A stretch of DNA of 64,000 bases from Halobellus sp. LT62 (GTDB taxonomy: Archaea; Halobacteriota; Halobacteria; Halobacteriales; Haloferacaceae), in the NCBI RefSeq assembly GCF_037031285.1, contig NZ_JAYEZO010000002.1, forward strand, positions 930,001 through 994,000, given 5' to 3'. The notes below the pieces were generated by a model that saw only the letters and a program-made list of their open reading frames with translations, made no database searches and was not told the DNA's origin. This document shows, piece by piece, positions 1 through 11,689 of this stretch. Positions within the stretch are counted from its first letter, which is position 1, and each line of letters starts with the position of its first letter. A program made the translations under genes and the position numbers.

Positions 1-84
1 CCGGCGTTGGCCGCGTTTCAGTACAAAAAGTCTCGTCCGAACCGACGCCCGTCTCCTCTCGTCGAATCGGTGCCTGTCTCCGGT

Positions 85-10659: not shown

Positions 10660-10682
10660 GCCACGCATAGCCGCACTGCGAT

Positions 10683-10764
10683 ATAGTAGCGTTTGCAAGT
10701 CTTCAGTCACTCGATCGCACGCTGTCGTGCGATCGGCTGAGAGGTCAGTTGCAACCGCTACTAT
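10683..10764 (-). mobile_element. 82-bp palindromic MITE-like element, copy 1
   Basis: A short element with near-perfect terminal inverted repeats (ATAGTAGCGTTTGCAA ... TTGCAACCGCTACTAT) and an inner palindrome (GATCGCAC ... GTGCGATC). Its reverse complement aligns end to end and without gaps with the element at 20923-21004, with about 13 mismatches by my hand count. No open reading frame and no clear target duplication. It lies in the spacer upstream of ilvD. Confidence 0.85.
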
Positions 10765-10792
10765 CGGTGTGGGGCGATGATGTTCGCGAGCG

Positions 10793-10800
10793 TTTATATA
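10793..10800 (+). promoter_or_regulatory. TATA-like box TTTATATA
   Basis: A strong AT-rich octamer in a GC-rich spacer on the plus strand with no plus-strand gene behind it. It lies 25 nt before the first stem of the candidate structured RNA at 10818. Confidence 0.45.
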
Positions 10801-10817
10801 TGAGAACGCGGCCAGAG

Positions 10818-10925
10818 GTGCCGTGGTGTGAGAGCTACCCCGCGCCGCTTCGCGGTTGCTCGGCACGTCGACGCGGGTGTGAGGGCGACGCTTCCCGGCC
10901 GTCCCACCCGGTCGTCCGCGAGCGG
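10818..10925 (+). ncRNA. Candidate structured RNA: two stem-loops with matching GUGUGAG bulges
   Basis: This is the rest of the 343-bp gap between ilvD and moaB. Stem-loop 1: GTGCCG (10818-10823) pairs CGGCAC (10861-10866). Inside, AGC (10833-10835) pairs GCT (10858-10860), and CCGCG (10840-10844) pairs CGCGG (10851-10855). Stem-loop 2: CGCGG (10872-10876) pairs CCGCG (10916-10920), and GGCGA (10884-10888) pairs the adjacent TCGTC with one G-U. In both, GTGTGAG (10826-10832 and 10877-10883) bulges on the 5' side with nothing opposite. Transcription is inferred from the TATA box only. GC-rich DNA pairs easily, so this remains a candidate. Confidence 0.4.
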
Positions 10926-10971
10926 GTGCCGACTGTTCGCCCAAATTCGCCCGAGAGCCTCGCCCTCGCGC

Positions 10972-11550
10972 TCACTCCGCGGGTCGCGTCGCCAACCCTG
11001 CCAGATGCGGCGCTTCGGGAACGATGATCTCCTCGCTGCCGAGTCGCGCGGCGTTCTCGCTGCCGGGCAGGCAGAACACGGGAACGCCGTGGACGATTCC
11101 CGCCGTCGCTCGCGTCCCGACCACGCGGGTTCCGATCTCGTCCTCGGAGTAGCGTCTGAACAGTTCGCCGAACCCCGGCAGCGTCTTCTCGAAGCGGTCG
11201 CCGACGGCCTCGACGGTCACGTCGTCCGGTGTAACGCCCGTTCCGCCGGTCGTGACGACCACCTCGACGTCGTCGCGCTCGACGATGGCATCGACCTTCG
11301 ACTGGAGCGTGTCGAAGTCGTCGGGAACGACCTCTCTGACGGTAATCTCGTGGCCTGCGGATTCGAAGGCCGACGCGATGACGTCGCCCGCGGGGTCCTC
11401 GTCGAGCGACCGCGACGTCGAGACGGTGAACACCGCCACGCCCAGCGCGCCGACGTCGTGCGCGTGGTGGTCGTCGTGCTCGTGGGATTCGCTGTCGTGA
11501 TGACCGTGTGTCTCGTGCTCGTGAGAGTCGTGGTCGTGCTCGTCGCTCAT
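10972..11550 (-). CDS. moaB: MoaB/MogA-type molybdenum cofactor protein with His-rich N-terminus
   Basis: A 192-residue MoCF_biosynth-domain protein. Homologues adenylylate molybdopterin before molybdenum insertion. The start MSDEHDHD is an ATG; an upstream TTG in frame is unlikely. Residues 1-31 are a His/Asp/Glu-rich segment with 12 histidines, absent from ordinary MoaB. The domain follows: ALGVAVFTVSTSRS, VVVTTGGTGVTPDDVT (near 110) and VFCLPGSENAARLG. The head probably binds metal ions, which is an inference. It is separate from the molybdoenzyme genes at 31-44 kb but serves the same cofactor. Confidence 0.92.
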   Translation of the reverse strand: MSDEHDHDSHEHETHGHHDSESHEHDDHHAHDVGALGVAVFTVSTSRSLDEDPAGDVIASAFESAGHEITVREVVPDDFDTLQSKVDAIVERDDVEVVVTTGGTGVTPDDVTVEAVGDRFEKTLPGFGELFRRYSEDEIGTRVVGTRATAGIVHGVPVFCLPGSENAARLGSEEIIVPEAPHLAGLATRPAE

Positions 11551-11689
11551 ATCGGATCTGTGCAGTTCCGTCGACAAAGGTTCACCTCCTCGGCCTTCGG
11601 GTGTGATTCACTCTCACGACAGGACCGACGGGCACGGGGTCCGCGAGGAGATCGGTGCGGAGAAACAGATCGATTCGATTCGAAGCCGC

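Follow-up and report, generated by a model that had tools for sequence, protein, structure and literature searches.

The ilvD/moaB spacer and a dispersed element

The window analyzed here, a stretch of 64,000 nucleotides (64 kb) from Halobellus sp. LT62, contains an intergenic spacer between ilvD and moaB. Both genes are on the minus strand; that no plus-strand gene follows was stated in a preliminary description of this DNA, which also correctly located the TATA-like octamer TTTATATA upstream and two exact occurrences of the 7-mer GTGTGAG (10826-10832 and 10877-10883). That description combined the 7-mers into two adjacent hairpins sharing a one-sided GUGUGAG bulge, and the drawn fold was dropped since the 7-mer was not enriched (7 occurrences in the window versus 5.96 expected, i.e. 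no repeat beyond chance) and since the RNA of positions 10800-10945 folded no better than its dinucleotide shuffles (z of -0.72, with 45 of 200 shuffles as good; z of -0.40 for single-sequence folding of the minus strand). The outer stem, drawn from 10818, also took in bases preceding 10823, where the transcript is predicted to start. In the alignments described below, the first GTGTGAG covers the second codon and the stop of a conserved RTG-NNN-stop motif, plus one more base. The first base of the second GTGTGAG is the last of the S1 3' strand, and the other six lie in a loop that is unconserved even among syntenic orthologues. The shared bulge is a coincidence, and the conserved fold is one H-type pseudoknot with an optional variable arm. 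The proposal of a structured RNA at this locus, which is indeed conserved, was retained without its two-hairpin shape. Taken by itself, the shuffling test would have led to the rejection of the proposal.

Searching the genome and the genus with the spacer DNA revealed two separate multicopy sequences, a palindromic repeat and the RNA element. The multicopy stretch of the latter extends from about 10786 to 10949 and takes in the TATA box. Fifty-four copies, all in the correct orientation, align from GAG-N-G-TTTATATA through CTGTTCGCC, with the consensus cGAG.gTTTATATaCGAa..gcGcGGCCA-N8-CGTGANNTGA-N7-CCCGCGTCG-gggcGCGGTTGYT-CGGCAC-GT-CGACGCGGG-(variable)-GTGCCGACTGTTCGCC. The corresponding parts of the window copy are listed in Table 1. 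No poly-T terminator was found after the 3' tail, a run of four T being present in only 7 of 244 copies.

Table 1. Parts of the RNA element in the ilvD/moaB spacer.
Feature	Positions	Strand	Basis or remark
Whole element	10788-10941	+	Belongs to a dispersed family of RNA genes
Promoter module: TATA box TTTATATA (10793-10800), GGCCA (10810-10814), pyrimidine at -1 (10822)	10788-10822	+	Conserved in copies order-wide
Leaderless start-X-stop mini-ORF (GTG-GTG-TGA), beginning at the predicted 5' end of the RNA	10823-10831	+	RTG-NNN-stop conservation
Spacer of 7 nt from stop codon to pseudoknot	10832-10838	+	6-8 nt in 220/233 copies
Stem S1, 5' strand (CCCGCGCCG)	10839-10847	+	Pairs with 10869-10877
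Loop L1 with conserved GCGGTTG motif	10848-10859	+	GCGG-TTG conserved; 12-13 nt in 190/233 copies
Pseudoknot stem S2, 5' strand (TCGGCAC)	10860-10866	+	Pairs with 10926-10932
Stem S1, 3' strand (CGACGCGGG)	10869-10877	+	Covariation
Loop L3 / optional variable hairpin arm	10878-10925	+	Contains the second GTGTGAG minus its first base
Pseudoknot stem S2, 3' strand (GTGCCGA)	10926-10932	+	Covariation
Conserved 3' tail CTGTTCGCC	10933-10941	+	CTGT-NN-GC nearly invariant; conservation ends here

About 43 strong copies are present in the Halobellus genome and five in each of two other genomes, which we take to be those of Haloarcula marismortui and H. hispanica. Among the named relatives, the exact core motif was found in Halobellus only. 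The copies are intergenic and mostly vertically inherited: both flanks matched for 14 of 30 of the genome's own copies in Halobellus limi and for 13 of 30 in H. rarus, and 22 pairs of syntenic copies were identified between these two species. Covariance model R1 detected the family in at least 144 of the 170 genomes of the GTDB family. In the order Halobacteriales, R1 gave matches in at least 283 of 392 sampled genomes at E ≤ 1e-4 and in at least about 200 (counted by hand) at E < 1e-8, the E-values of the models being rough. Only the genomes with E < 1e-8 were taken as carriers of the family since the weakest R1 matches are spurious. Inspection of nine low scorers with a second model, R2, built from order-wide copies, led to the rejection of weak matches as members, six of the nine being promoters of leaderless protein genes. 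The genomes with weak matches are, at a guess, Natrialbaceae and Halorubrum. R2 was applied to 393 genomes of the phylum and, among the matches listed, those found in 47 genomes were all in Halobacteriales. Viral contigs and phages gave no match to the family, and plasmid matches were limited to a Halobellus limi replicon, in which the element is unannotated.

The Rfam covariance models gave no match at the gathering score in the window, nor, at 20 loci representing many genera, over the element; a hairpin-ribozyme match obtained at low threshold (E of 3.2) was discarded as chance. Neither the RTGATGA/CTGA end pair of box C/D RNAs nor the ACA located 3 nt from the 3' end in H/ACA guides was seen, the 3' consensus being CTGTTCGCC. 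The lack of an Rfam match is in keeping with a new RNA and, as judged from sequence comparisons, the RNA is a previously unclassified family present order-wide in Halobacteriales. Individual copies may already be catalogued as anonymous sRNAs.

Five genomes assigned to the same GTDB genus (G011, G013, G014, G015, and G016), of which G014 and G016 are 98-99% complete, contained no copy of the RNA element or of the palindromic repeat, corresponding either to loss or to a deep split within the genus. At the edge of the window (1-34, minus strand), the promoter end of another family copy (G000:C2:929919-930034) is cut by the boundary. One family copy (L181, 1501-1650) is located approximately 50 bp from an archaeal RNase P RNA gene (1699-2093), in divergent orientation.

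A conserved H-type pseudoknot

Stems S1 (CCCGCGTCG/CGACGCGGG, 9 bp) and S2 (TCGGCAC/GTGCCGA, 7 bp) interleave to form an H-type pseudoknot. In alignment A1 (43 copies), 98.7% of the S1 cells and 100% of the S2 cells were paired, and compensatory changes were present at 7 of the 9 S1 pairs. The held-out order-wide alignment A5 comprised 60 further copies, none of which had been used to build R2, with a few loci that may repeat earlier ones. In A5, 98.4% of the S1 and S2 cells were paired, including 165 double-change cells, and compensatory changes were detected in 9 of 9 S1 pairs. The covariation score was 0.564, versus 0.179 for shuffled alignments and at most 0.118 when slid. Over 184 copies, 5 of the 1288 S2 cells were non-pairs, and four types were present at the outer pair (TA, 78; GC, 48; CG, 28; AT, 25). 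Stem and loop lengths differ by 1 to 3 nt among copies and covariation tracks the base pairs; in addition to L1, loops L2 and L3 comprise 2-3 and 5-156 nt, respectively. The window copy and its syntenic orthologue in Halobellus limi displayed compensatory differences in both S1 and S2, and S1 of the window copy harbors one C-A mismatch (10845:10871). The covariation is overwhelming: the family has a conserved pseudoknot fold.

The strand was deduced from the wobbles. Cells with G-U outnumbered those with A-C (134 versus 12), indicating an RNA on the plus strand since these wobbles pair in plus-strand RNA only, and a minus-strand RNA was ruled out on the same basis. Compensation at the S1 and S2 pairs across haloarchaeal copies, together with the empty Rfam search and the conserved TATA box, strongly supports the possible new plus-strand structured RNA that had been suggested for this spacer.

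Promoter and predicted start-X-stop mini-ORF

The center of the TATA box is located approximately 26 nt upstream from an almost invariant R, which is preceded by Y in 183 of 184 copies. This spacing is the layout expected of a haloarchaeal start site, and transcription from the TATA promoter is predicted to begin with the R of RTG (10823). Conservation of the octamer at this distance strongly supports its assignment as the promoter of the RNA, as originally surmised.

The nine bases starting at R read RTG-NNN-stop in 232 of 244 distinct copies, versus 0 to 2 copies at the other offset windows tested. The third codon was TGA in 189 distinct copies, TAG in 27, TAA in 16, and TGG in one. In a tree built from the remaining sequence, which is approximate owing to the short alignment, TGA was replaced by TAA or TAG on at least 23 branches and by TGG once. 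RTG was present in 57 of the 60 held-out copies. The start codon is GTG in more than 90% of the copies and rarely ATG; in about 3%, RTG is absent and replaced by ATC, ATA, GTA, or ACG. Since R1 and R2 both contain the RTG columns, copies devoid of RTG are slightly under-sampled in these counts, although a few were still found. Codon X is mostly ATC, ACG, ACC, or CGC and is usually a common codon. In six leaderless genes for proteins, whose promoters have this layout, the start codon is located, within one base, at the offset of RTG. The fixed offset of RTG-NNN-stop, the interchange of stop codons, and the position of the start codon in the leaderless genes led us to interpret these nine bases as a leaderless start-X-stop mini-ORF. 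In Haloferax volcanii, 72% of the coding transcripts are leaderless and GUG starts 6% of the leaderless ones (PMC4983044).

The six leaderless genes (L328, L329, L330, L339, L340, and L344, with matches at position 1501) have promoters with the TATA-CGAA-GGCCA layout found for the RNA and encode an archaeal pilin, a Cys-rich zinc-finger-like protein, and other proteins. GGCCA or GACCA is present in five of these promoters, and G(G/A)CCA, located at about -13 to -9, could represent an unrecognized haloarchaeal promoter element.

Possible engagement of ribosomes and alternative explanations

The element would be the gene for a small structured RNA of roughly 80-155 nt expressed from its own TATA promoter. 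From 5' to 3', this RNA would contain a leaderless start codon (GUG or, rarely, AUG), a single ordinary codon, and a stop, and then, after 6-8 nt, the pseudoknot with the optional arm and the fixed 3' tail CUGUUCGCC. A 70S ribosome would initiate on the leaderless RUG, make a dipeptide, and meet the stop at codon 3. The spacing of 6-8 nt between the stop codon and S1 implies that, with the stop codon in the A site, the pseudoknot would be positioned at the mRNA entry, an arrangement known from recoding signals. The ribosome would be held there, or its release sensed, and the RNA would tune translation or be itself controlled by translation. Readthrough and frameshift pseudoknots use this spacing and, in those of the MuLV type, the A-site codon is followed by about 6-8 nt and then by an H-type pseudoknot. 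The family resembles these pseudoknots by this spacing and by its fold. In contrast to recoding pseudoknots, the family RNA ends with the pseudoknot, with no conserved downstream reading frame: an in-frame ORF past the stop codon is not conserved among copies, and the frame of the window copy meets a second stop codon.

Two observations argue against the ribosome mechanism. The copies lacking RTG (approximately 3%) raise the possibility that the motif functions as a signal in the RNA or DNA and not as a codon, and GTG, found in more than 90% of the copies, is a weak leaderless start in Haloferax. The neighboring genes, for their part, give no deducible function for the RNA. We consider it an even call whether the window copy is a small-RNA gene of an unclassified Halobacteriales family that engages ribosomes through start-X-stop and the pseudoknot. 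More tentatively, the family may be a new, ribosome-directed class of small RNAs, spread in haloarchaea and amplified in Halobellus to dozens of copies, in which start-X-stop loads a ribosome and its immediate termination against the pseudoknot acts as a general translation brake, a ribosome store, or a sensor of initiation or termination.

A trans-acting scaffold or sponge, binding a putative protein or ligand via the pseudoknot, the GCGGTTG loop, and the CTGTTCGCC tail, is a somewhat unlikely alternative, in which the early stop would only shield the fold from leaderless translation. Such a role would account for the conserved unpaired motifs located away from the mini-ORF and for the many interchangeable copies. 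If translation were merely harmful, loss of RTG would be expected, yet RTG is kept in about 97% of the copies. The variable arm differs even between syntenic orthologues. This turnover argues against locus-specific guides and in favor of interchangeable copies, and a guide or antisense function of the arm was rejected on this basis.

It is improbable that the element acts in cis, the RNA or its convergent transcription setting the 3' end or the expression of the neighbor whose stop codon adjoins the 3' end of the element. Genes were called in these orientation analyses by a simple composition rule. Convergence is the usual orientation of the downstream gene, whose stop codon is at a median distance of 38 nt. 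This gene was convergent in 37 and co-directional in 18 of the independent held-out loci; these 18 of 55 genes thus run the other way. Flank orientation in the first set was significantly biased toward (-,-) over (+,+) (55 versus 19), but the held-out loci failed to reproduce this bias (14 versus 10), and the neighbors are functionally unrelated.

Still less probable is a selfish, SINE-like or MITE-like dispersed element with a conserved fold serving its own spread. The internal promoter and the copy number (about 43 dispersed copies here versus 5 in each of the two genomes taken as Haloarcula) would fit this explanation. However, the copies are old (70-84% identical), their sites are syntenic in the sister species (14/30 and 13/30), the alignments contain no terminal inverted repeats (ends GAG...GCC), and compensatory evolution at a single locus (L059/L281) indicates selection after insertion. 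A leader (riboswitch or attenuator) of the downstream gene, suggested by the succession of a promoter and a structured RNA, can hardly be entertained as most copies, that of the window among them, have this gene on the opposite strand, and it is different at each locus.

The proposed engagement of ribosomes has a parallel in the CreT RNA toxins of haloarchaeal CreTA modules (Haloarcula hispanica, H. hubeiense), which are short RNAs acting through translation (PMC8501985). CreT comprises a mini-ORF ending in a conserved UGA, followed by a stable structure needed for activity, and is leaderless in H. hubeiense; its two consecutive rare codons (AGA or AUA) sequester tRNA and its partner is the CRISPR-like CreA (PMC8501985). 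The family shares with CreT the succession of a start codon, a short ORF, a stop codon, and a downstream structure, with RTG-NNN-stop in 232 of 244 copies and the pseudoknot after 6-8 nt. It differs from CreT by a single codon between start and stop, without two rare codons, and by the pseudoknot and the many dispersed copies. Neither creA nor a type I cas operon was found beside the window copy in the ilvD/moaB spacer, and the family copies are located at many unrelated loci.

Haloferax and Haloarcula are model archaea, whose sRNAs, inventoried for years, have mostly been described as species-specific. The family described here would be an order-wide RNA class, proven by covariation, that carries a promoter of its own, ranges from a single copy to dozens in a genome, and is absent from Rfam; if true, it would be among the few conserved structured non-coding RNAs specific to archaea. 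The start-X-stop design predicts a ribosome parked on codons 1 to 3 and could account for haloarchaeal sRNAs that occupy ribosomes but encode no protein. In Haloferax volcanii, untranslated sRNAs display strong ribosome occupancy, such as the 111-nt sRNA_61 (PMC12482152). Compared by description only, these small RNAs, with high occupancy and no protein product, have the appearance that the family would be expected to show in Ribo-seq. The H. volcanii sRNAs H225.2R, hts10, and htsf_359 were reported to be conserved in 12-19 further haloarchaeal genomes (PMC3956466) and, again by description only, resemble the family as conserved haloarchaeal sRNAs. The article texts on H. volcanii and H. mediterranei sRNAs gave no sequences for comparison with the family.

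Two further features flank the element. The other multicopy sequence of the spacer is an 83-bp near-perfect palindromic repeat (10682-10764; TAGTAGCGTTTGCAA...GATCGCACG...) present in about 40 copies in the genome and in many copies in congeners. It was found inserted within the loop of three RNA copies (L108, L111, and L115) and is therefore probably a MITE-like element preferring GC-rich palindromic targets. On the other side, the MoaB-like protein (10972-11577) harbors a long His/Asp/Glu-rich N-terminal tail (HDHDSHEHETHGHHDSESHEHDDHHAHD), which looks like a metal-binding extension.
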